A stretch of DNA of 52,376 nt from Desulfamplus magnetovallimortis (GTDB lineage Bacteria; Desulfobacterota; Desulfobacteria; Desulfobacterales; Desulfobacteraceae). The stretch's first letter is position 1. Every line of letters starts with the position of its first letter. Below the pieces are notes generated by a model. The model had not been told where the DNA came from, searched no databases, and was given only the letters and a program-made list of their open reading frames with translations. The position numbers and the translations under genes were made by a program. The stretch lies in the NCBI RefSeq assembly GCF_900170035.1, contig NZ_LT828542.1, positions 323,270 through 375,645 of the forward strand. Reading direction: 5' to 3'. Shown piece after piece: positions 7,622 through 51,006 of this stretch.

Positions 7622-7741
7622 ATACTATATTTGAAGTATTGCACTATAGTTAAAGTGTTGTGCTATATTTTAAGCCTTGCACTATATTAAAGTATCGTAC
7701 TATATTAAAGTATCGTACTATATTAAAGTATCGCACTATAT
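7622..7741. repeat. A+T-rich 18-bp tandem repeat in the intergenic gap
   Basis: Six or seven units, most clearly ACTATATTAAAGTATCGT repeated between about 7675 and 7741, degrading leftwards to variants such as ACTATAGTTAAAGTGTTG. It fills the gap between the CcdA-like and thioredoxin-like genes and has several TATA-like steps. It could affect expression of the CcdA-like gene if copy number varies. Confidence 0.85.
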
Positions 7742-8143
7742 TTAAAGTATTACACCCATTTTTGTAAGTTGTTTAACGATATCATCTTCACTCATAAAAC
7801 CTGTATGACGTGTTACCTCTTTGCCATCAGCATCAAAAAAAATCTGGGTTGGTATGGCACGGATACCAAATCTTTTAGCCTCTGAGTTATTTTCCCATAC
7901 ATCAATGAATACAATAGCAGCTTTTCCAGCATAAGCTTTTTCAAGTTTTTCAAGAATCGGTGCCATCATCTTGCACGGAATACACTTTTTAGCACCCAAA
8001 TCAATCATGGTAACCATTCCTTTTACTGGAACTTCCGACGGGGTTGTCATATTTTCTGCACTGTATGCTGTAAATGAAATGGTCAAAATAGCTGCTATTA
8101 TAATTAGAAATGAGGCGGTTCTATATTTTGGTATTATTTTCAT
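7742..8143 (-). CDS. Exported thioredoxin-fold protein
   Basis: A 133-residue protein with an N-terminal signal/anchor segment (FLIIIAAILTISFTAYS, residues 12-28). The thioredoxin domain has the active site KKCIPCKMM and the cis-proline region FGIRAIPTQIFFD. Its role is probably periplasmic thiol-disulfide exchange, fed by the CcdA-like protein encoded immediately downstream. The ribosome site (AGAGGAAAA) is rather far, about 12 bases, from the ATG. The two genes are separated only by the 18-bp tandem repeat. Confidence 0.88.
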   Translation of the reverse strand: MKIIPKYRTASFLIIIAAILTISFTAYSAENMTTPSEVPVKGMVTMIDLGAKKCIPCKMMAPILEKLEKAYAGKAAIVFIDVWENNSEAKRFGIRAIPTQIFFDADGKEVTRHTGFMSEDDIVKQLTKMGVIL

Positions 8144-19684: not shown

Positions 19685-22282
19685 TCAGGCAATTAGATTT
19701 TCAATTGTTTCCATTAAACTGTTTTTATCAAAATCACCTTTGATTATATAGGCATTTGCTCCAGAATCAATTCCCCTGATAATATCTTCCCTGCGCTCCC
19801 TTGAAGTAACAAGAATAATGGGAATATCTCTGTATCCTTCAAGCAACCTTAAATTTTCAGTCAACGTAAAACCATCCATTCTGGGCATATCAACATCTGT
19901 TATGACAAGATCATAGTGAAATTGCCTGCACTTCTCAAGCCCCTCACTGCCATCAATTGCCAGCGTCACATTATAACCATATGATTCCAGGATGTTTTTT
20001 TCAATCTCGCGGGTTGTAACAGAATCATCCACCACCAGGATATCAAGCTGTCCATCCCTGAAAGATGGTGTTGCAGAGACAGGCTCCTGATTGTCAGAAG
20101 CTGTTTTTGTTTTCATTGAGGCTGTACCATGGGCATGTTCAATAGCATATGAAACATTTAATACATTTATAACTTCGTTATCAGCGGAAATAATAGCACC
20201 GGAAACCATGCGGAAAGATTCCATATGAGGCGGCAGAGGCTTTACAATCATCCTCTCTTCACTTATCAATGCATCTACAACAACTCCGGCAGTTTCATTT
20301 GTATTTCCAGATACAAGAATCAAAAGATCTTCTGTTTTTGCCATGGAGTGCATTGTGATGTCAAGAAGATCAGAAAGAAACATAAGAGGCACAAGTTCAT
20401 CATCCATGCGAATTGCAAGGCTCTTATTAATGGTAATGCAATCCTTTAAAGGAACTTTTATCATGAATTTTATATGGCCTGCCTGCACGGCAAATTTAAT
20501 ACCTGACACTTCAATAAGAAAAAGATGCACAACAGCAATGGTGGCAGGCAGACTTATATTAAACTCACTACCAATTCGGGGTTGGGTCTCAACAATGATT
20601 GAACCGCCAAGATCACTTTCGAGATTCTCCCTCACAACGTCCATTCCTACTCCTCTTCCGGATATTTCAGTAATTATCTCGGCAGTTGAAAAACCCGGCA
20701 TAAAGATGAGATTCAGAATTTCCCGTTCTGAAAGCAGCAAAATCCTATCTTTGTCAAAAAGCCCTTTAGATAGAGCTTTTTCTAAGATTTTATCCTTATC
20801 TATTCCCTTTCCATCATCCCTGAGCCTGATTATAACCTTTGAACCGTCACAGGCTGCGGACAATGAAATTTGTCCCTGACGTTTTTTTCCTTCTGCAATT
20901 CTGGTTTCCGGAGATTCAATGCCATGATCGATGCAGTTACGCAGCATATGGAGAAGAGGATCTTTTAACTTTTCAATCATTTTACGATCCATTTCTGTCT
21001 CTCCCCCCTTTATATCAAGAGCAACATCTTTTTCACACTCTTTTGAAAGCTCCCTAACATATTTATAAAAAGTATCAAACAAAGTGGAAAGAGGCTGCAT
21101 CCTGAGTCCCAAGGCACGATCCATTAACTCTGTCACAAGGGGATGGCAGTTATCAAGAAACTCTTTTATATTTTTCTGAACAATTTGAATCTCAGGATTG
21201 TTACTTTTCAGGGATGAAAGCTGAGCGATATGCCTGCCAAACTGACGATGAAGGATACCAAGCTCTCCCATCAGGTTTATCATATCATCAAGTTTTTTTA
21301 TACTCACCCTGATTGATTCGTCTGATTTTGCAGGCACCGTATCATTTCCACGTCTTTTTTCCGGATTTATCTCATTTTCACTTGCAAAAATTTTTCCGTT
21401 TCTTCCAGAAGCAGAATCCTGAAAAACTGCGTCTTCTCTTTCTGATAAAGCTGCAACCTCAGATAAAGCATGTTTTCTTTCTGATAAATTGGCACCCTGA
21501 GATAAAGACTTTTCTCTTTCTGATAAATCGGCACCCTGTGATAAAGATTTTTCTCTTTCTGATAAATCGGCATCCTGTGATAAATATTTTTCTCTTTCTG
21601 ATAAATCGGCATCCTGTGATAAATATTTTTCTCTTTCTGATAAATCCGAATCCTTATAGGAAGAGGATTGTTTTTTTAACGGCAAATCACCATCACCATC
21701 AGCAGCAGCAGCAGCAGAAGAAGAAGAAGAAGAAATGACAGAATTAGCGGTGGAAGGAAAAGTAGCTGAAGGAGAAGTAGCTGAAGGAGAAGTGGCTGAA
21801 GGAGAAATGGCTGAAGGAGAAATGGCTGAAGGAGAAGTGGCTGAAGGAGAAACGGCTGAAGGAGAAACGGCTGAAGGGGAAGCGGCTGAAGAAGAAGATT
21901 CAGGTAAAGCAGCTTCAGCAAGGCTGTGAAGCAATGATTCAGGTGGCTCTGGTTCAACTCCGGACAAAAGCTGTTCCAGCATATCGGATAGAGTATCAAT
22001 ACTCTGATACAGCAAGTTTACAAGTTCATCTGACCAGCTAATATCTTTTTTTCTCAATGCATCAAAAATATCTTCAAGAAGATGAGCAAAATTGCTGATC
22101 TCTATGAATTTCATCATCCTTGATGCCCCTTTAATGGAGTGTGCAGAGCGGAATACTCCGTTAAGAAGCTCCTTGTCCAGGGGATTTTTTTCAAGTGCAA
22201 GCACCCCCTGTTCCATCTGCTTCAGATGGTCACCTGCATCTTCAATAAAACGGGATATAAATGCAGAACGATCAAAGGCCAT
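19685..22282 (-). CDS. cheA: Hybrid chemotaxis kinase CheA-REC (WspE-like)
   Basis: About 865 residues. An HPt domain at the start has the phosphorylated histidine in FRSAHSIKGASRMM. A very long linker (about residues 130-320) is built of two tandem repeats. The dimerisation helix region (IRVSIKKLDDMINLMGELG), ATP-binding domain (MLRNCIDHGIESPETR; RDDGKGID; GRGVGMDVV), CheW-like domain and a C-terminal receiver (ILVVDDSVTTREIEKN; LVITDVDMPRMDG) follow. No P2 domain is seen; the repeats occupy that place. Start choice: MAFDRSAF at 22282 has GGAG 9 bases upstream; the ATG at 22315 is an alternative. Both overlap the cheR stop. Confidence 0.93.
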   Translation of the reverse strand: MAFDRSAFISRFIEDAGDHLKQMEQGVLALEKNPLDKELLNGVFRSAHSIKGASRMMKFIEISNFAHLLEDIFDALRKKDISWSDELVNLLYQSIDTLSDMLEQLLSGVEPEPPESLLHSLAEAALPESSSSAASPSAVSPSAVSPSATSPSAISPSAISPSATSPSATSPSATFPSTANSVISSSSSSAAAAADGDGDLPLKKQSSSYKDSDLSEREKYLSQDADLSEREKYLSQDADLSEREKSLSQGADLSEREKSLSQGANLSERKHALSEVAALSEREDAVFQDSASGRNGKIFASENEINPEKRRGNDTVPAKSDESIRVSIKKLDDMINLMGELGILHRQFGRHIAQLSSLKSNNPEIQIVQKNIKEFLDNCHPLVTELMDRALGLRMQPLSTLFDTFYKYVRELSKECEKDVALDIKGGETEMDRKMIEKLKDPLLHMLRNCIDHGIESPETRIAEGKKRQGQISLSAACDGSKVIIRLRDDGKGIDKDKILEKALSKGLFDKDRILLLSEREILNLIFMPGFSTAEIITEISGRGVGMDVVRENLESDLGGSIIVETQPRIGSEFNISLPATIAVVHLFLIEVSGIKFAVQAGHIKFMIKVPLKDCITINKSLAIRMDDELVPLMFLSDLLDITMHSMAKTEDLLILVSGNTNETAGVVVDALISEERMIVKPLPPHMESFRMVSGAIISADNEVINVLNVSYAIEHAHGTASMKTKTASDNQEPVSATPSFRDGQLDILVVDDSVTTREIEKNILESYGYNVTLAIDGSEGLEKCRQFHYDLVITDVDMPRMDGFTLTENLRLLEGYRDIPIILVTSRERREDIIRGIDSGANAYIIKGDFDKNSLMETIENLIA
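21430..21655 (-). repeat. 39-bp in-frame tandem repeat inside cheA
   Basis: Six or more units encode a 13-residue repeat, SEREKYLSQDADL and variants (SLSQGADL, ALSEVAAL). The units nearest 21530-21650 are almost identical in DNA, which points to recent expansion. The unit is strongly charged and probably helical. Confidence 0.93.
21752..21892 (-). repeat. 15-bp in-frame tandem repeat inside cheA
   Basis: About nine units of a 15-base repeat (plus-strand GCTGAAGGAGAAGTG and variants) encode the pentapeptide SPSAV/SPSAT/SPSAI. It is next to a serine-rich run and probably forms a flexible linker between the HPt and kinase core. Confidence 0.93.
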
Positions 22283-24146
22283 GATGATATACTCCGGACT
22301 TTCCGGTTCTGACATGGTGACCTGCTGATTTTGCTTCAGTATGGGATACTGAATTTCCTGAATATTTTTTACAACGGTTTTTGCACATATGAATTATCTG
22401 CTCACTTGAAAAAGCAAGAGGGAAATAGTCAAGATCGCATTTCATATCCCTGTTTTTCTCAAGCAGTTTAATAACAATTGCTGCCTCTCTCGCTGAGTTA
22501 CGATACTCTTTCTGACGTTGATAAGTTTCAGAAAGATAGTAGTGGGCAAGCCAGTTTGATGGTTTCAGGTATATTGCCTGTCTGAAACGTTTCAAGGCAT
22601 CCTCAATTCTGTTTTCAAACCAGTCAGCCATTCCAAGAATAAGGTAGGGAGCCACTGAGCCATTTTTCATCTCTATGCTTTTTTTGCAAACATCTCTTGC
22701 CTCACTCCATCTTTTAAAGTGAAGCAGCACAGAAGCCTCTAAAATCAACATCCTCTCCATATATTCAGATTGTAGAGATGTGGTATCAACAGATTCAATA
22801 AAAGAGAGAGCATCTCCAAATCTTTTTTCCATGACCATGGAAAGTGCCCTGTCATAAATAGATGGGGAATTGAGGAGAGCTATTTCAAAATTGTTCCCTG
22901 AAGCAGACAAAGATTGAGTGTTCCATAAAAAATGTGAAGATTTGCTAAACTGAAAGGAGTCTGTGGATGGCAAAGAATCTTTGGATAGTAAACAATCTTT
23001 AAATTGTGAAAAGTCTTTAGATGATGAAGAGTCTTTGGATGGTGAAGACTCTTTGGATGGTGAAGACTCTTTGGATGGTGAAGACTCTTTGGATGGTGAA
23101 GACTCTTTGGATGGTGAAGACTCTTTGGATGATGAAAAATGCAATTCATTATTTAGGAAAGTACACTCATTGCCATATGACAGGATCAAATCTTTTTTTG
23201 AAGATGTATTGAATATTTTGCCGTGAAAAAGAACTCCATTTTTTTGATCCGATATCGCTGGAACATCTATCAGCGTTGCTGAAACATCAATCGACAATTG
23301 CCGTTTATCCGGAGATTGCCCACAATGTTGAAAAGAAGAATCTGACTCTTTGCGAAAGAGAAAAATACCATCAATTTCGACAAGAACAAGGTCAGTTGTA
23401 TCATGGGACATTGTTTCTGCAGCCCCCACAATCATGTAACCGCCATCATTCAAACGATCTGCCAGGGAGTTGATAACCCTGTTTCGGGTCTGCTTGTCAA
23501 AATAAATTGATACATTTCTATAAAATATAATATCAAACTTCTCAATGGTTAAAATTGATTGTTTATCCATCAGGTTAAGATATCTGTAATTTAACCTGTT
23601 CCTTATAAAGGAAGATACACGATAACGTCCAGGGCCTGTTGGCTCAAAATAGTGCTTTTTTGTTTCATCTCCGATATATCTTAAGCTTCTGAGCCCATAT
23701 ATTCCTTCCCTGGCAATATCAAGGGCATTGGTGTCGATATCAACACCTGTAATCCGGATGTCTGAAAGATAACTGTCACCAAAACATTGTGCTATTTTAA
23801 TTGCAATGGAGCAAGGCTCCTCGCCGGTTGAACAGCCTGCACTCAAAATTGAAACAGGTCTGTTGTATTTTTTTGCGGATGTTATGGCCGGAATCAGAGA
23901 GCTACACATAAGATCAAGATAACGAACTTCCCTGAAAAAGCAGGTCTCGTTTATAGTAAGCAAAGTAACCAGCGCAGCAAATTTGGATGGCGTCTCATGG
24001 ATATGGTGATAATATGCCGAAAGATTATCAAAACCAAGGGCATGCATCTCACTTAATACACTTTCTCTGAAAACAGCGGAGCGATGATAATCAAAACTGA
24101 GACCAGTTCTCTCCTTTACAAAATCCTCAAGCATTGAAATCTGCAT
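22272..24146 (-). CDS. cheR: CheR methyltransferase with TPR extension (WspC-like)
   Basis: About 624 residues. The N-terminal helical domain and methyltransferase (to about residue 265) have TINETCFFREVRYLDLM, SILSAGCSTGEEPCSIA (the SAM-binding loop) and FDIIFYRNVSIYFDK. A long polar linker with an 18-bp tandem repeat follows, then a C-terminal TPR region (about 440-590) with AIYLKPSNWLAHYYLSETY. It should methylate the receptor encoded just upstream; TPR-bearing CheR proteins include WspC. The ATG at 24146 is preferred: GGAG lies 10 bases before it, whereas the GTG at 24155 is only one base from it. The 3' end overlaps cheA. Confidence 0.93.
   Translation of the reverse strand: MQISMLEDFVKERTGLSFDYHRSAVFRESVLSEMHALGFDNLSAYYHHIHETPSKFAALVTLLTINETCFFREVRYLDLMCSSLIPAITSAKKYNRPVSILSAGCSTGEEPCSIAIKIAQCFGDSYLSDIRITGVDIDTNALDIAREGIYGLRSLRYIGDETKKHYFEPTGPGRYRVSSFIRNRLNYRYLNLMDKQSILTIEKFDIIFYRNVSIYFDKQTRNRVINSLADRLNDGGYMIVGAAETMSHDTTDLVLVEIDGIFLFRKESDSSFQHCGQSPDKRQLSIDVSATLIDVPAISDQKNGVLFHGKIFNTSSKKDLILSYGNECTFLNNELHFSSSKESSPSKESSPSKESSPSKESSPSKESSPSKDSSSSKDFSQFKDCLLSKDSLPSTDSFQFSKSSHFLWNTQSLSASGNNFEIALLNSPSIYDRALSMVMEKRFGDALSFIESVDTTSLQSEYMERMLILEASVLLHFKRWSEARDVCKKSIEMKNGSVAPYLILGMADWFENRIEDALKRFRQAIYLKPSNWLAHYYLSETYQRQKEYRNSAREAAIVIKLLEKNRDMKCDLDYFPLAFSSEQIIHMCKNRCKKYSGNSVSHTEAKSAGHHVRTGKSGVYHHGL
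23025..23140 (-). repeat. 18-bp in-frame tandem repeat inside cheR
   Basis: Five near-identical units (plus-strand GGTGAAGACTCTTTGGAT) and several diverged ones encode SKESSP, then SKDSSS and relatives. It lies in the linker between the methyltransferase and TPR regions. Confidence 0.93.
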
Positions 24147-24167: not shown

Positions 24168-26489
24168 TCAAATCCTGAAATTTTGAATCATATTTTTAAG
24201 CTGATCTGTCAAAGTGCTGAGGGCAGCTCCTGTCTCACTGATCTTCTTGATGGAAGATGATGTCTGCCAGCCACTTTCATCAATCTCCTTAAGCGCATGT
24301 AGAACCTGCTCACTTGCAGCGTTCTGCTGCTGGGTTGAAAGAGTTATCTGACGGGCAGCATCCCGGGTTTTCTTTGATGTATTTACAATGGCTGTAAGGG
24401 TCTCACTTGTGTGTGCTGCAAATGCCTTGCCTTCGTTTATGCAGCTTGTACTCTTTTCAGATGCCAGAATCATCCGCTGAACAGCATCCTGAATTTCATT
24501 TATCTTTACTTCAGTCTCACGGGTGGAAGCTTCTACATTTTCAGCAAGACGCCGTATTTCAGCAGCCACAACACCAAATCTTCTTCCGGCATCGCCGGCA
24601 CTTGAGGCTTCAAGTGCGGCATTAAAGGCAATCAACTTGGTCTGATCAGCAATATTGTTTATAATTTCAAGGATTTTCGTAACTTCCCTTGTCTTGTTTC
24701 CAAGTTCATGAATTCCTTTGACAGTATTAATATTGTCCTGATTAATATCCTCCATCTTGCTGTTTACAAGATTTACTGAATCAGCCCCTTTACTTGCATT
24801 ATCAAGGGCATCTTCTGCAATTGCAAGCACTGTATCACAATGCTCTGATATCTGCTGTGAAGATGCCGAAAACTCAGCCATTGTTGATGTGATTTCTGTC
24901 ACAGAGGCAGACTGTTCAGATACACTTGCAGCCTGGTTCTCCAGAGCCTCTGCAATCTCTGCTGTATTTGAGGTCAAATGGTTGACAACATCAACCATAT
25001 TCTGGATCATGGAACGAATGCGGATTATCATATTATTGAAAGCTTTGGCAAGGTGACCGATCTCATCTCTTGAGTCTATGTCAATGAAATGGTTTGTCTC
25101 AATTACACCCTCGGCAAGACTGTCTGCAAAATGAATCATCTTGTCAACAGGCTTTAAAACAGTGCGTGAAAGTACCCATGAACTTATAAGGCCTGCAACA
25201 CAAAGTATCAAAACAAGCATAACAACCTGTGATATCAAGATAATACGGCTTGTCTTATATTCGTCTCCCGGCTCCATCCCAAGTGCCATCACTCCAATCT
25301 GCTTACCGGAATAATCAAGAACAGGAAAAGCAGCAGAAACCTCTCCCTTGTTATAAACTATCTTTATACCGGTTCTTCCCTGGTCAATAAGTGATATATC
25401 CGGAAAACCGTTTTTATAATCTCCAAAGCTTCTCATAACCTCCACATAACGGTCTCCAAGCAGAGGGTAGGCATTGCTGTCCTGGAGACGATGGGTAATA
25501 TTGAGAAATTCGCTGTTCATAAAAAGAGAGAGACGGTATTGACTCTGTGAAAATATTGTATCAACAAGGGACTCAAAGTCAAAAAGCACCTCAACAGAGC
25601 CAAGAATTTTGCCATGCAAGGCATCAGGCGCAACATACAAAGCAGCAATGGTTTGTCCGGAATCATGGGCAATGTTTTTTTCAGAAGTACTGGAAACATT
25701 ATTCTCTACATCTCGGGCAGCATTATTTTCTACATCTCGGGAAACATTATTCTCTACATCTCGGACAGCATTTTTTTCTACATCTCGGGAAACAATATTC
25801 CCTACATCTCGGGCAGCATTGTTTTCTATATCATGGGCAGCATTGTTTTTTACGCTTTTACCGGTAGATGCTTCCGGGTCTGAATTCTGCTTTAAACCGG
25901 AATAAGTCTTTGACGCAATCACAGGAGCAACACCGCGAATCACAAAACCTCCACGGCCAAGTTCAATTCCCTTGACCGATTTCCCCCTTTTGTTAACATC
26001 AAGCACCGTATTTCTGAAATCGGAAATATCGTCAGAAACATCCATCCACACTCCATTTCTTTGGATCTGTTTTGTACGCCACATTCTGACAAGACTGCGT
26101 CCGTTGGGAAGATGAAAATGAAGTTTCATATCCTCGATTGTACCACTTGATTCTCTGTAGCCTTCCATAAAAGGGGCAAGTTTTACCCTGAGCATCTCTC
26201 GGGATTGCTGCATTACAGGATCATTCTCATTATCCATGTCAGCAGATGCAAGCATTTCAAAGGCTTCTATTACATCAGGAGCACGGGAAAAAAGAGCTGC
26301 CTTTTCAAGGGCTTGCTGGGCTGTATAGTCAACATTTTTCTGAAACAGCACAATGTTGTTTCTGACAAGCCTCTCCGCACTGGTTTTTGTGAGTTTATTC
26401 AACTGATGAACCGTAGCCATGGAACCTGCAATACAAAATATCATGACAATGCTTGCTACAGGGATAATATTTTTATTTCTCAATTTCAT
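24168..26489 (-). CDS. Methyl-accepting chemotaxis protein of the Wsp-like operon
   Basis: A 773-residue receptor. It has a first membrane segment (about 10-30), a large periplasmic sensor, a second membrane segment (VVMLVLILCVAGLISSWVL), HAMP, and a signalling domain with the tip ADQTKLIAFNAALEASSAGDAG. Sensor motifs such as MKLHFHLPNGRSLVRMWR and GIELGRGGFVIRGVAPVI resemble double-Cache type 3 domains. Inside the sensor, between that motif and GKILGSVEVLFDFESL, lies a run of 8-residue tandem repeats. Ribosome site AAGGAT precedes the ATG at 26489. It overlaps the CheW-like gene by 17 bases and probably plays the WspA role. Confidence 0.92.
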   Translation of the reverse strand: MKLRNKNIIPVASIVMIFCIAGSMATVHQLNKLTKTSAERLVRNNIVLFQKNVDYTAQQALEKAALFSRAPDVIEAFEMLASADMDNENDPVMQQSREMLRVKLAPFMEGYRESSGTIEDMKLHFHLPNGRSLVRMWRTKQIQRNGVWMDVSDDISDFRNTVLDVNKRGKSVKGIELGRGGFVIRGVAPVIASKTYSGLKQNSDPEASTGKSVKNNAAHDIENNAARDVGNIVSRDVEKNAVRDVENNVSRDVENNAARDVENNVSSTSEKNIAHDSGQTIAALYVAPDALHGKILGSVEVLFDFESLVDTIFSQSQYRLSLFMNSEFLNITHRLQDSNAYPLLGDRYVEVMRSFGDYKNGFPDISLIDQGRTGIKIVYNKGEVSAAFPVLDYSGKQIGVMALGMEPGDEYKTSRIILISQVVMLVLILCVAGLISSWVLSRTVLKPVDKMIHFADSLAEGVIETNHFIDIDSRDEIGHLAKAFNNMIIRIRSMIQNMVDVVNHLTSNTAEIAEALENQAASVSEQSASVTEITSTMAEFSASSQQISEHCDTVLAIAEDALDNASKGADSVNLVNSKMEDINQDNINTVKGIHELGNKTREVTKILEIINNIADQTKLIAFNAALEASSAGDAGRRFGVVAAEIRRLAENVEASTRETEVKINEIQDAVQRMILASEKSTSCINEGKAFAAHTSETLTAIVNTSKKTRDAARQITLSTQQQNAASEQVLHALKEIDESGWQTSSSIKKISETGAALSTLTDQLKNMIQNFRI
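25690..25853 (-). repeat. 24-bp in-frame tandem repeat inside the MCP sensor
   Basis: About seven units encode RDVENNAA/RDVENNVS and variants, 8 residues each. Unlike most repeats here it interrupts a folded periplasmic sensor rather than an interdomain linker, presumably in a surface loop. Confidence 0.92.
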
Positions 26490-46495: not shown

Positions 46496-47155
46496 CTACC
46501 TGGGTATTATATACTCCTGCAATTCAGGGCTATCAAGATTCATATTCTCCATTCTTTTTATTTGCTTTTGCATTTTCTTTTTATTGGAATCTTTACTTTT
46601 ATTATAACATTTCTCTTCATTCTCTATAAGCGTTGTATTTGCAAGTTTAACAACATTGCCCATTTTAAGATCTTCATCCTGATTGTTATGCTGAAAGATA
46701 AGGCTTATATTTTCCCCTTTGTCATTAACAAACGACCATTTCCAGGCAAGAACCACCCCAAAGGCATCTCCTTTCCATTCATCAGGTTCTCCAAACTTGT
46801 TTTTATAGTATTTAAGAACAGTATCGTAAAATTTTCTTGAATCATCCTGAAATTTTAATTTTATCCTGACAATTTTGTCCATCTCCTGGCAGTTGGCAAT
46901 GGATATTAAACCTGATTTAAAAACAGGACACATGTACACTTCAACCTCCTGAAGATAATCATGGTATCGGATGCACATGCGGCTGTCTGATTTTATGCGC
47001 TCCTTGAAACTATCAATGCTCTCTCCGAGTGTAAAGCCACCAAGATGCTTTGGGGCAATTACTTTCCCTTTTACCCCATCACCTGCCAATACATGGGGAG
47101 ACAAAGCAAACATTAACGCTAAGATAGTTATTGCCCAATAGTGATTTTTTCCCAT
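46496..47155 (-). CDS. Secreted hypothetical protein
   Basis: A 219-residue protein of unknown function. A clear signal peptide (WAITILALMFALSPHVLAG, residues 7-25) precedes a mature part that is mixed charged and aromatic. Three cysteines lie within about 30 residues (MCIRYHDY, YMCPVFK, IANCQEM), so a disulfide is likely. GGFTLGESIDSFKERI resembles the start of small domains that bind other secreted proteins, but I do not recognise a family. The C terminus (NKSKDSNKKKMQKQIKRMEN) is highly basic and helical. It lies alone, bounded by a toxin remnant and element 1. Confidence 0.75.
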   Translation of the reverse strand: MGKNHYWAITILALMFALSPHVLAGDGVKGKVIAPKHLGGFTLGESIDSFKERIKSDSRMCIRYHDYLQEVEVYMCPVFKSGLISIANCQEMDKIVRIKLKFQDDSRKFYDTVLKYYKNKFGEPDEWKGDAFGVVLAWKWSFVNDKGENISLIFQHNNQDEDLKMGNVVKLANTTLIENEEKCYNKSKDSNKKKMQKQIKRMENMNLDSPELQEYIIPR

Positions 47156-47393: not shown

Positions 47394-48056
47394 TCATCTA
47401 TAACGTTCAATCAAATTCAACATCTGCTTTTCAAAACGCCTGACTCTGAGCTGCACTATTTTTTCCACAAGACCATCTCTTTTATCTTCAAATTTTGAAA
47501 GAATTTTCCTGAAGCTCTTTCTGTCAAGACTCAGAAGCTTTACATCAGTACAAGCTTTAACATTGAAAAAAGCCTCAAAATCAGCAATAAGCGCCAACTC
47601 CCCAAAAAAATCGTTCTCACTTATTCTCTGTATCGCAAAAAAAATGTCTGGATTATCCGGATCAACGTAATATGCCTCAAGCTCCCCTGCCACAACAAAA
47701 TATGCACAACCTGCACGATCTCCATGTTTTATGACCACATGTCCCTTTTTAAACTCAACAAAACGCGACATGTAAGCACACAATCTTAAAATCTCAAGGG
47801 ATGCCCCTGCAAAAACAGGTGCCATTCTGAGAATTTCCAGATTACGGGTAAATGCACATTCAGGCTTTTCCATATCCACATCACTGCCATTTTCATTTGC
47901 ATCATTTTTTAAGGGATGGTCGAAATTCTTTTTTCTATTACTCTCAACAACAACATTATCAGTATTAGAGTTAGAGTTAGAGTTATGATTAACACCATTT
48001 GACAAATGGGAGGAATCAGAATTCTTCTCTGGAATATCATAATCTGGAAAGTTCAT
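47394..48056 (-). CDS. Cyclic-nucleotide-binding domain protein
   Basis: A 220-residue cytoplasmic protein. After an asparagine/serine-rich start (NSNSNSNTDN, from a 6-bp tandem repeat) comes a cNMP-binding fold (about 75-190): FKKGHVVIKHGDRAGCAYFV, VAGELEAYYV and the phosphate-binding loop ENDFFGELALIADFEAFFNV. The usual arginine-threonine pair after the loop is replaced by phenylalanines, so ligand binding may differ or be lost. There is no DNA-binding domain; the tail is basic and helical. AAGGAG precedes the ATG at 48056, which overlaps the ABC exporter gene by 20 bases, so the two proteins are probably made together. Confidence 0.85.
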   Translation of the reverse strand: MNFPDYDIPEKNSDSSHLSNGVNHNSNSNSNTDNVVVESNRKKNFDHPLKNDANENGSDVDMEKPECAFTRNLEILRMAPVFAGASLEILRLCAYMSRFVEFKKGHVVIKHGDRAGCAYFVVAGELEAYYVDPDNPDIFFAIQRISENDFFGELALIADFEAFFNVKACTDVKLLSLDRKSFRKILSKFEDKRDGLVEKIVQLRVRRFEKQMLNLIERYR

Positions 48057-51006
48057 ACAAAGCTCCTTTTTGATCCAGCAGATCCTGAAATTTGCCCTGC
48101 TCTACAATCTGCCCCCCTTTCATAACAATAATGTGATCATACTCCTTTGCCATGTCAAGGCGATGTATCACAGAGAGGACAGTTGTATTATCCGGAAGAC
48201 CATCTCTTATCAATTTCTGTACTTTTTTCTGGGATTGATTGTCAAGGCTTGCTGTGGCCTCATCCAGAATTAATATGGAAGGTTTTTTCAAAAGAACCCT
48301 TGCAAGGGCAATTTTCTGTTTCTGACCTCCGGAGAGCAGATCTCCTTTACTGCCAACATTAAAATCCAGCCCAATCTCCATTATCTCGTCAAAAAGATTC
48401 TCCTGTATGAGAAAGTCCATCACAAGGGGAATAACACTTTGCAGATCCCCTTCAATGCTGTATTTAACCTTGCCGAAAATAATGTTATCAAGAAGAGAAT
48501 GGGAAAACTGATACATGGATGGACAGTATGGCCTGAACTCTCTTTCCCTGTGAGCCGCAAAAAACTTTGTAAGGTCATCTTTGCTGCTCTCCATAAACTC
48601 GGGAAGATTCATGCATTGATTAATTTCTGCCCCGCCAATCTCTGTCATAAAAACATGTCGGGTCTGGACAATCTTTTTCTCCAGGGATTGCGGCAGTATA
48701 ACCATATTGTGAAATGCCGGAATATATTTTAAAGATAGATCCATCAGCATCACAATCTTATATTTATCAAGATTTCCAATGAAATCAAGATTTGCCATTG
48801 AATCATGATGTTTTATGGAATCAGGATGTTTTATGAAATCGGATTTTTCCATGGAATCAGAATTTCCTATGGAATCCGAATACTTCGTGTATTCAGTTTT
48901 TACTGCAATATTTTCAAGACTGCTGACAAGGTCAGCATATGCCTTGAATTCACTGGAGCCTATTGGACTTGACCTCAGAAAAAAATCATCTTCAACAAAA
49001 TTTTTCAACAAACTCACAGTCTCAACAGCAATGCTTCTACCAAGCAGCAGTAAAGGGATATACATATTCTCTTTTTTGAGAAACTCAATAAAAATAGAGT
49101 TTGTTGCAATATTCTCAGGAGCAAAACCAGCATCATTGAATTCACCAAAAACAATGTTTTCATAGATGGTGTTGTGATGCATGAAACTGTTGACTTCATA
49201 ATGTTCTACATAGTTATTAAGATTTGCCTGACCGGAAAGAGAAATGGCATGCCTTATCTTTATCAGTGCAAATATCAAGGCATCCTGTTTATCAGGCTCA
49301 AGCACGCTGTTAAGGCCGAGACGTATTATATCTTCTTTTAAGCCTGTCTTTTCCACAATTTTAAACAGTTCATTCCTTGAAGGCATCAACTCATTTCTCC
49401 CAGGAACAGCACCATCACTGTCAGTGGAACCGTGCAAGTCAACGCAATTATCCAATGCAACGCAATTCCCCAAATCAGCACTGTTCCCAAAGTCAGCACA
49501 ATTCCCCAAGTCAACACAGTTCCCCAAGTCAACACAGTTCCCCAAGTCAACACAGTTCCCCAAGTCAACACAGTTCCCCAAGTCAACACAGTTCCCCAAG
49601 TCAACACAACTGCCAAGGGCAGCGCAACTGTATAAAATATTTTCTCTGATGGTACCTGTAAATATAAATGGATGCTGGGCAACAAACCCAATGTTTTTAC
49701 TGACATCAACCTTGGTAAGAGTTGAAAGCTCATGCCCCCCCAAACGGACACTGCCATTTGTGTAACCGTACATCTGTCCCAGAATAATGGCCAGGGTACT
49801 TTTCCCGCTGCCTGAAAAACCCACAATAGCTACATGGGTTCCTGATTGAATATCAAAAGAGATATTGTTTAAAAGTTTGATATCTCCAGGAAGCTCATAC
49901 TCCAGATCCCTTACCTCCACACTGCCATCAATAACATGAACCGGCCTTCCCACAGGCAATTTGAGATAGTCGGGGGTTATACGAAAAGTATCCATGATCT
50001 GCTGATAATGTACCTTTGCATCCTGATACTCTTGATAATATTCAATCATCTCCTTCCAGGGATCATAAACCTTTTCATAGGCTGATAAAAATGCCACCAG
50101 GGCGCCAAGGGTAAAATAGCCATGTATGGCAAGGTAGCCTCCATACATGAACAAAATAAAGGGGCCAACACTCTGGATCATGCTATTGACAAACTTTATA
50201 CCAAATTTAAACAGAAATAACGGAGACATAACCTTAAAAAGTTCACCAATAAAACTCTTTATCCTTTTCTCCTCAATATCATAGGCGGCATTTGCATGAA
50301 CTTCATGGATACCTGAGACTGCCTCATTAATGGTACTGCTCATGCCCCTTGTTATTTTGACGCGTTTTCTGTTCAATATATTGTATCTTTTTTGAAGCAG
50401 AGGGATTATGACAAGCTCAAGGGGATATATGGTAAGACTTATGAGGCCAAGTTTGGGGTTCAGATAGATCATGTACCCGAAAAAGGCAAAAAATGTGAGG
50501 ATATTCATTATGGGCGTTGTCAGCGCAAGACCAATAAAAAGAGCGACACTGTTAAGCTCGGCTGTCATTGCATTGATCATGGTGCCTGGCTGATTTTCCC
50601 TGAAAAACCTCATTGGCAAAGCAAGAATATGGGAGTAAAGCTCCTGGCGTATCTCCATCACAGCCTTCTGGCCAATATAACGCTGCATAAAATTGAGAAA
50701 ATATTTAAGAAGCGCAGCAATCATCACTGAACCAAAATAGAGACCGCAATATAAAAAAAGAAGATCTTGCCTGCCAAGGCGTATGGCTGTGTTAACTATC
50801 TGCCTTTGCATCTCCAGAGGATAAACCTTGAAAAAAAGGCTTACAATTATGGCCAGCAAAACAACAGCCTGAAGCATTCTGTTTCTGTGAAGTACCCAGT
50901 AAAAAAGAGGACGCTCGGTTATCTGAACTTTACCGTGCAGATAGCTCTCATTATTTTCATGGTCAATGGGACCATCTGAATCACTCCATGGAGGTTTTAG
51001 TATCAT
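48037..51006 (-). CDS. ABC exporter with a greatly expanded nucleotide-binding domain
   Basis: A 989-residue half-transporter. The N-terminal ~340 residues are an exporter-type membrane domain (six segments; FFRENQPGTMINAMTAEL is a coupling-helix region). The ATPase has Walker A GFSGSGKST (396-404), Q-loop FVAQHPFIFTGTIRENILYS (about 441-460), then signature LSGGQKQKIALARVLL (from 891), Walker B ILILDEATASLD and switch HR in SVIHRLD. Between Q-loop and signature lie about 430 residues instead of about 45. They include the DLGNCV repeats, and twice more the post-Q-loop pattern (NTIYENIVFGEF; HSLLDNIIFGKV). All catalytic motifs are intact. It overlaps the cNMP gene. Substrate unknown. Confidence 0.9.
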   Translation of the reverse strand: MILKPPWSDSDGPIDHENNESYLHGKVQITERPLFYWVLHRNRMLQAVVLLAIIVSLFFKVYPLEMQRQIVNTAIRLGRQDLLFLYCGLYFGSVMIAALLKYFLNFMQRYIGQKAVMEIRQELYSHILALPMRFFRENQPGTMINAMTAELNSVALFIGLALTTPIMNILTFFAFFGYMIYLNPKLGLISLTIYPLELVIIPLLQKRYNILNRKRVKITRGMSSTINEAVSGIHEVHANAAYDIEEKRIKSFIGELFKVMSPLFLFKFGIKFVNSMIQSVGPFILFMYGGYLAIHGYFTLGALVAFLSAYEKVYDPWKEMIEYYQEYQDAKVHYQQIMDTFRITPDYLKLPVGRPVHVIDGSVEVRDLEYELPGDIKLLNNISFDIQSGTHVAIVGFSGSGKSTLAIILGQMYGYTNGSVRLGGHELSTLTKVDVSKNIGFVAQHPFIFTGTIRENILYSCAALGSCVDLGNCVDLGNCVDLGNCVDLGNCVDLGNCVDLGNCADFGNSADLGNCVALDNCVDLHGSTDSDGAVPGRNELMPSRNELFKIVEKTGLKEDIIRLGLNSVLEPDKQDALIFALIKIRHAISLSGQANLNNYVEHYEVNSFMHHNTIYENIVFGEFNDAGFAPENIATNSIFIEFLKKENMYIPLLLLGRSIAVETVSLLKNFVEDDFFLRSSPIGSSEFKAYADLVSSLENIAVKTEYTKYSDSIGNSDSMEKSDFIKHPDSIKHHDSMANLDFIGNLDKYKIVMLMDLSLKYIPAFHNMVILPQSLEKKIVQTRHVFMTEIGGAEINQCMNLPEFMESSKDDLTKFFAAHREREFRPYCPSMYQFSHSLLDNIIFGKVKYSIEGDLQSVIPLVMDFLIQENLFDEIMEIGLDFNVGSKGDLLSGGQKQKIALARVLLKKPSILILDEATASLDNQSQKKVQKLIRDGLPDNTTVLSVIHRLDMAKEYDHIIVMKGGQIVEQGKFQDLLDQKGALYELSRL
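48790..48890 (-). repeat. Degenerate 18-bp in-frame tandem repeat in the ABC exporter
   Basis: About six diverged units encode DSIGNS, DSMEKS, DFIKHP, DSIKHH, DSMANL and DFIGNL. It is an older-looking counterpart of the 49480 repeat inside the same insertion. Confidence 0.75.
49480..49625 (-). repeat. 18-bp in-frame tandem repeat (DLGNCV) in the ABC exporter
   Basis: Five exact copies of CCCAAGTCAACACAGTTC (plus strand) plus several variants encode DLGNCV and relatives (DFGNSA, ALDNCV). The identity of the copies indicates recent expansion or contraction. The repeat lies just after the Q-loop of the ATPase. Confidence 0.93.

Follow-up and report, generated by a model that had tools for sequence, protein, structure and literature searches.

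Three apparent tandem copies of the helical subdomain in an MsbA-like ABC half-exporter of Desulfamplus magnetovallimortis, and its cNMP-fold partner

Results

We have analysed a stretch of 52,376 nucleotides from Desulfamplus magnetovallimortis (contig NZ_LT828542.1, positions 323,270 to 375,645; hereafter, the window) and, in particular, a gene on its minus strand (48037..51006) which, judging by its open reading frame (ORF) and by library scans, encodes an ATP-binding cassette (ABC) half-exporter of 989 amino acids with an ATG start. Our main finding is that, at the level of sequence, the helical (ABC-alpha) subdomain occurs three times in tandem in the part of this protein that leads from the Q-loop to the signature, where a single one is the exporter norm, and that a gene for a protein with a cyclic nucleoside monophosphate (cNMP)-binding fold adjoins it. 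It is through the helical subdomain that ATP binding is communicated to the coupling helices of the transmembrane domain. The reading that we favour, by a modest balance of probability, is that of an MsbA-like, exporter-derived machine which would be gated via the tripled subdomain by the cNMP-fold subunit, and which in part of the family would be a pseudo-ATPase sensor.

The domain order is that of a half-exporter, namely an ABC_membrane transmembrane domain (residues 69-308; 50083..50802, minus strand, as are all features of this gene; Pfam PF00664, E 2e-30) followed by ABC_tran, which Pfam finds split in two pieces, the best of them ending at residue 460. The catalytic motifs, assigned by position, are all present: Walker A GFSGSGKS (residues 396-403; 49798..49821), the Q-loop with Q444, the signature LSGGQ (891-895; 48322..48336), Walker B ILILDEA (911-917; 48256..48276) and the switch region SVIHRL with His 948 (945-950; 48157..48174). 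This agrees with a first-pass annotation of the same DNA, which had taken the motifs to be intact and the gene not to be decayed. The same annotation had put about 445 residues between Q-loop and signature and called the expansion about ten-fold; we count 448 residues from Q to SGGQ, close to its figure, while the expansion comes to about eight-fold relative to the 57 residues of L112, an ordinary exporter from this genome, and to about six-fold in the family. The three segments it had singled out, GTIRENILYS (451-460), NTIYENIVFG (612-621) and HSLLDNIIFG (836-845), lie where it placed them, each within a larger unit. Copy 1 of this unit (residues 433-572; 49291..49710) includes Q444 and a private tandem array described below. 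A linker helix and copy 2 follow (571-670; 48997..49296), then a middle stretch that is conserved in the family and matches no unit (671-769; 48700..48996), and finally a linker helix and copy 3 (770-889; 48340..48699), which continues into the signature.

Relatives were gathered with a profile of the insert, and the set compared here comprises 88 copies: 49 of what we will call the window's group (of which its phylum supplies 47 and a Desulfocapsa genome 2), 34 from Pseudomonadota and 5 from plasmids, the last being the 5 of 169 matching plasmid records that were read, and counted apart; a fragment, G844, was left out. Segment profiles were built from an alignment of 36 copies of the window's group (L057 is not among the 36), and profile-profile scores were judged against column-shuffled controls, 200 for the window's group and 100 for the Pseudomonadota set. 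The probabilities obtained were 92.9 for copies 1 and 2, 96.6 for copies 1 and 3 and 97.6 for copies 2 and 3, and none of the 200 controls reached any of these values. Against the helical subdomain of ordinary exporters, for which 4 of the 14 ABC proteins of the window's genome served, copies 1, 2 and 3 gave 99.1, 73.7 and 96.4%, respectively (0/200 nulls each). What is more, the unit extends beyond the segments noted earlier: it takes in the helix ahead, which contains an invariant Arg, and when copies 2 and 3 are compared with their linkers included, they match with a probability of 98.5 and an E of 1.8e-15 over 83 columns. The middle stretch has no match to either of the copies flanking it (115/200 and 25/200 controls score as well). 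Repeated on the 34 Pseudomonadota copies alone, the three comparisons gave 94.6, 93.9 and 99.2 (0/100 controls each), with an E of 8.7e-20 for copy 2 against copy 3. Across the two groups, matching copies score 134 and 143 and non-matching ones 87 and 73, and because the former outscore the latter, the triplication must be older than the split of the groups. Finally, five residues (R497, N529, R652, N703 and G707 in the numbering of L009), all situated in the linkers and in copies 2 and 3, are the same in 83/83 genomic copies. The earlier suggestion of a duplicated helical subdomain, later lengthened by private tandem repeats, is thus borne out by the profile comparison and the family alignment.

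A remnant of the signature helix at the ends of copies 1 and 2 was also considered and was not significant, 9 to 69 of 100 nulls scoring as high; of 6 comparisons, 5 do place the invariant Arg of the linker on the Arg of the signature helix, two of these spanning just 1 and 3 columns, and one longer alignment passes through it. No model of Pfam at E 0.01 or of NCBIfam at E 0.001 matches the insert. In a scan of the whole window protein, LED_rpt covers part of the insert below its cut-off (E 0.047), and comparison of the insert with solved structures gave one weak match (E 0.32). No description of a tripled helical subdomain, and no paper recognisable as dealing with this family, was found among the titles and opening lines of abstracts listed by the literature searches, nor was such a description found in the curated libraries used.

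Among 395 sampled members of the window's phylum, the insert profile finds 28 genomes with a match, and among 398 of Pseudomonadota, the phylum of Lacimicrobium alkaliphilum, it finds 30, with no stop in the matched frames of either set; the 169 matching plasmid records (out of 72,556) all belong to rhizobia and near kin according to the organism list, and no relative was found in viral contigs and phage records. Occurrence within the window's family is patchy. None of 9 other genomes of its own genus carries the protein family (7 of those 9 are less than 90% complete), and the nearest named copy found is that of the Desulfocapsa genome (Thermodesulfobacteriota). A midpoint-rooted tree built from 60 copies unites the window's group in one clade with a support of 0.999, around which the Pseudomonadota copies fall into several lineages; L071 (892-3420) branches first within the group, with a support of only 0.17 at the next node. 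The distance from Q to SGGQ is 312-337 residues in 34 of the 36 aligned copies, at most 340 in 47/49 of the window's group, and 320-426 in Pseudomonadota. The two outliers of the window's group are the window copy itself (448) and a paralogue in the same genome (419; G000:C2:196404-199190, L011 6390-9191), a protein of 933 amino acids, 50% identical to the window copy in the best stretch and 44% overall, which has an overlapping cNMP gene of its own and a glycosyltransferase gene downstream of it.

Part of the extra length of the window copy is accounted for by private tandem repeats. An 18-bp array of 9.7 copies encoding DLGNCV lies in copy 1 (49435..49608, minus strand), and a second tandem repeat (48766-48876) in the middle stretch; both kinds are confined to the window copy, one of the 88 compared. 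These repeats, since they do lengthen the protein, are what one could cite for regarding the insertion as decay or as a repeat-driven artefact of one strain. To this explanation we assign practically no chance, because the homologues refute it: the insertion is found in the genomes of both phyla just counted, is free of stops in the matched frames, and contains invariant residues, by which strain specificity is excluded. With up to 3 mismatches allowed, the 27-base pattern taken from the 49435 array recurs nowhere in the rest of the genome. As a side observation, contigs C11 and C17 of the same genome contain frames to which the DLGNCV stretch has a match. The window as a whole has 21 tandem-repeat rows, 19 of them with a period that is a multiple of three (for example 7623-7755, 21434-21654, 21753-21897, 22960-23136, 25692-25853 and 49435-49608), and only those in the ABC gene have been assigned to a gene.

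The cNMP-fold partner (47394..48056, minus strand) has 220 amino acids and cNMP_binding (residues 100-188) as its sole Pfam domain; no helix-turn-helix (HTH) domain is detected in it by Pfam at E 1. Of the phosphate-binding pair of its pocket, Glu is kept and Arg is missing. The 20-base overlap with the ABC gene that had been noted on first inspection is there (48037..48056, minus strand): the ABC stop lies within the start of the cNMP gene, whose ATG is preceded, six bases ahead, by AAGGAG, and because of these two features translational coupling of the genes is likely. One copy of the window's group (L046) ends at a contig edge, which leaves 48 of the 49 assessable for a partner. The homologue search showed insertion and cNMP neighbour to be conserved together, the cNMP gene being adjacent in 66, fused in 8 and absent in 8 of the 82 assessable genomic copies. 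In particular, it follows the ABC gene directly, on the same strand, in 45/48 copies of the window's group, 21/34 of Pseudomonadota and 5/5 of the plasmids, and adjacent genes overlap in 44/45 and 6/21 pairs of the first two sets, respectively, if the longest possible start is used. Fusion, always at the C-terminus, occurs in 8/34 Pseudomonadota copies (proteins of 976-1103 amino acids) and in none of the window's group or the plasmids; it implies that the cNMP domain and the ABC protein work together, and no more than that. In the Pseudomonadota copies that have no partner (L100, L104, L105, L107 and L139), the ATPase motifs are strongly degraded throughout.

The ATPase and the cNMP pocket have decayed in opposite lineages. 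Seven catalytic positions were scored, namely Walker A Lys, Q-loop Gln, signature Ser and Gly, Walker B Asp and Glu, and switch His. All seven are kept in 49/49 copies of the window's group, while among the 34 Pseudomonadota copies they are kept, in this order, in 7, 1, 10, 8, 10, 7 and 2, and in no copy all together; in 31/34, one or more of Walker A Lys, Walker B Asp and Walker B Glu have been lost. The Glu/Arg pair of the cNMP pocket, on the other hand, is present in 1/45 of the window's group and in 23/29 of Pseudomonadota. The single case in the window's group is L071, which combines an intact ATPase with an intact pair, and three fused Pseudomonadota copies (L101, L102 and L106) retain Lys, Asp and Glu; these three also possess the pocket, which makes the split less than absolute. 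The extra copies, as far as their sequences tell, outlast the ATPase in Pseudomonadota.

This persistence where the ATPase has decayed can also be taken to mean that the extra copies are a scaffold for binding cargo or a partner, unrelated to gating, with the cNMP subunit as an independent regulator, a reading which we consider unlikely, though by no means negligible. The middle stretch, being family-specific and no repeat, fits such a scaffold, and so does the point of insertion: UvrA and SMC/Rad50 have a large insertion at the same place, between Q-loop and signature. Those inserts, however, are unrelated to the helical subdomain and belong to proteins without a transmembrane domain, whereas here a transmembrane exporter carries an insert that is built of the ABC-alpha module itself. 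The cNMP domain, moreover, is adjacent or fused in 74/82 assessable genomic copies, which argues against an independent regulator.

As regards its surroundings, the cNMP gene is the only general neighbour of the family; other neighbour families in the window's group reach at most 8 of 36 loci. In Pseudomonadota, where clusters of neighbours were named from one scanned representative each, a GT4-type cluster is represented no more than six predicted genes away from 15/34 copies, and the same holds of a second glycosyltransferase cluster for 14/34. Within the same range, a cluster represented by a class III cyclase is met at 5/34 copies (L090, L093, L103, L140 and L145) and one represented by a DUF3095 protein at 4/34 (L091, L093, L095 and L137); the cNMP pocket pair is intact in 7 of the 8 distinct loci with either of these two nearby. 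The five rhizobial plasmid copies have three glycosyltransferase genes upstream, with intervening genes in two of the five, and the Rhizobium records that were read annotate the pair only as an ABC transporter and a cyclic nucleotide-binding protein. As to pRL11, on which a pair lies, a passage of PMC11103875 describes pRL110056 as an enzyme of O-antigen biosynthesis.

The GT4-type cluster in Pseudomonadota and the glycosyltransferases on the plasmids, together with the one downstream of the cNMP gene of the paralogue, speak for a functional exporter that would carry a glycan or glycolipid of the envelope, and in which the insertion would be a lineage quirk that merely stabilises the dimer. 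MsbA (TIGR02203) is indeed the best curated resemblance of the window protein, with an E of 5e-89, but at 299.2 bits it misses the cut-off of 602. What is more, the 31/34 Pseudomonadota copies that have lost Walker A Lys and/or Walker B Asp/Glu have nonetheless kept the extra copies, and we regard this explanation as quite improbable.

Two further candidates were tried and rejected. A heterodimer partner for the decayed copies is not consistently found, another ABC-like ORF (E 1e-30) being present in 6/34 Pseudomonadota loci and of mixed types; and the PADLOC matches that could indicate a role in defence read as generic ABC and cNMP domains. Among the remaining neighbours, a secreted-looking protein of 219 amino acids (46496-47155, minus strand), which belongs to no Pfam or NCBIfam family, has relatives near the ABC/cNMP pair in 7/36 loci, the window included; in L009 its relative divergently adjoins the pair, and a PqqD-like protein lies further on. 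Several copies of the window's group (L053, L056, L061, L063, L064, L066, L068, L069 and L075) have nearby genes that by eye resemble STAS and anti-sigma-kinase genes, in two clusters that count 7 and 6 loci.

Discussion

It is instructive to compare the protein with known systems. With MsbA-type half-exporters (type IV fold) it shares the transmembrane domain and the usual order of motifs, and it differs from them in having three copies of the helical subdomain, and not one, as well as a cNMP-fold partner. Regulators of the CRP type have a cNMP domain followed by an HTH, which the window cNMP protein lacks. Proteins of the type of TIGR03896 (bacteriocin transport-associated cNMP) are cNMP-domain proteins tied to an ABC export system, and in this respect they are alike; the scores against that model are, however, 21.3 bits for the window protein and 42.9 for that of Rhizobium, at a cut-off of 161. 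As described in passages of PMC10986499, HetC of Nostoc is an ABC exporter whose N-terminal cNMP domain is required for function and binds ppGpp in vitro, with no protection by cAMP, so that an ABC exporter can, on that account, depend on a cNMP-fold domain. HetC as portrayed there combines a C39 peptidase with an N-terminal cNMP domain, whereas our family has its cNMP domain either encoded by a gene of its own or at the C-terminus, and neither C39 nor any other peptidase family, as in HetC-like exporters or PCATs, is found in the window protein at E 1 in Pfam. Finally, exporters with one degenerate nucleotide site (for example, PMC12038006) tolerate the loss of catalytic residues, as ours do; there, the partner half supplies the working site, while here there is no consistent exporter partner.

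Gating by the cNMP-fold subunit, the reading that we favour, starts from the triplication and its age, the invariant residues, the conserved and sometimes fused partner and the overlap of the genes; docking, gating, ligand and substrate are what it would add to them. The opposite decay of motifs and the cyclase-like neighbours of some Pseudomonadota copies also speak for it, and HetC provides a precedent. Copy 1 retains the Q-loop of the ATPase domain, copy 2 stands in between, and copy 3 runs into the signature. The extra copies may form a platform on that face of the ATPase domain which meets the transmembrane coupling helices, and the cNMP subunit, docked on this platform, could gate the opening and closing of the ATP sites. 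Because the ATPase is intact in the window's group and the phosphate-binding pair is lost with one exception, the subunit would there be a constitutive gate, or one for another ligand, on a working exporter. In Pseudomonadota, because the ATPase is mostly decayed and the pocket mostly intact, the protein would be a ligand-sensing pseudo-transporter.

A number of points weigh against this reading. To begin with, the presence of the insert in every copy is built in, because the copies were found by means of the insert profile. The similarity of copy 2 to ordinary exporters is the weakest link, spanning 28 columns at the 73.7% given above. AlphaFold models the ATPase domain at a predicted local distance difference test score (pLDDT) of 38 with a two-protein alignment, and one unit, aligned with six fragments of these proteins, at 60, and Foldseek, run on the low-confidence one-unit model (pLDDT 60), returned no match under E 4.8. 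A neighbouring cNMP gene is absent in 3/48 copies of the window's group and in 5/34 of Pseudomonadota (0/5 on plasmids), and 6/29 Pseudomonadota cNMP domains have no Glu/Arg pair either, thereby losing both halves. The contrast between the two groups rests on few independent evolutionary events, and the contact between the cNMP protein and the extra copies is a step that we infer.

One can also take a more general, and more tentative, view, which we hold to be possible but rather doubtful. Namely, these proteins may form a class, not recognised before, of ABC-derived membrane relays, in which the tripled ABC-alpha subdomain would be the working part and would link a cNMP-fold sensor with the transmembrane domain, hydrolysis of ATP being optional: one lineage would have kept the motor and given up the ligand pocket, the other would mostly have done the reverse, and the early-branching L071 has both.

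Whichever of these applies, the family offers a natural experiment on how force is transmitted by the helical subdomain, and on the way in which a sensor that does without ATP may arise from an exporter. The residues that are invariant in the extra copies, unlike the catalytic motifs, are direct targets for study, and the presence of the genes in Rhizobium provides a workable organism in which the family could be studied.

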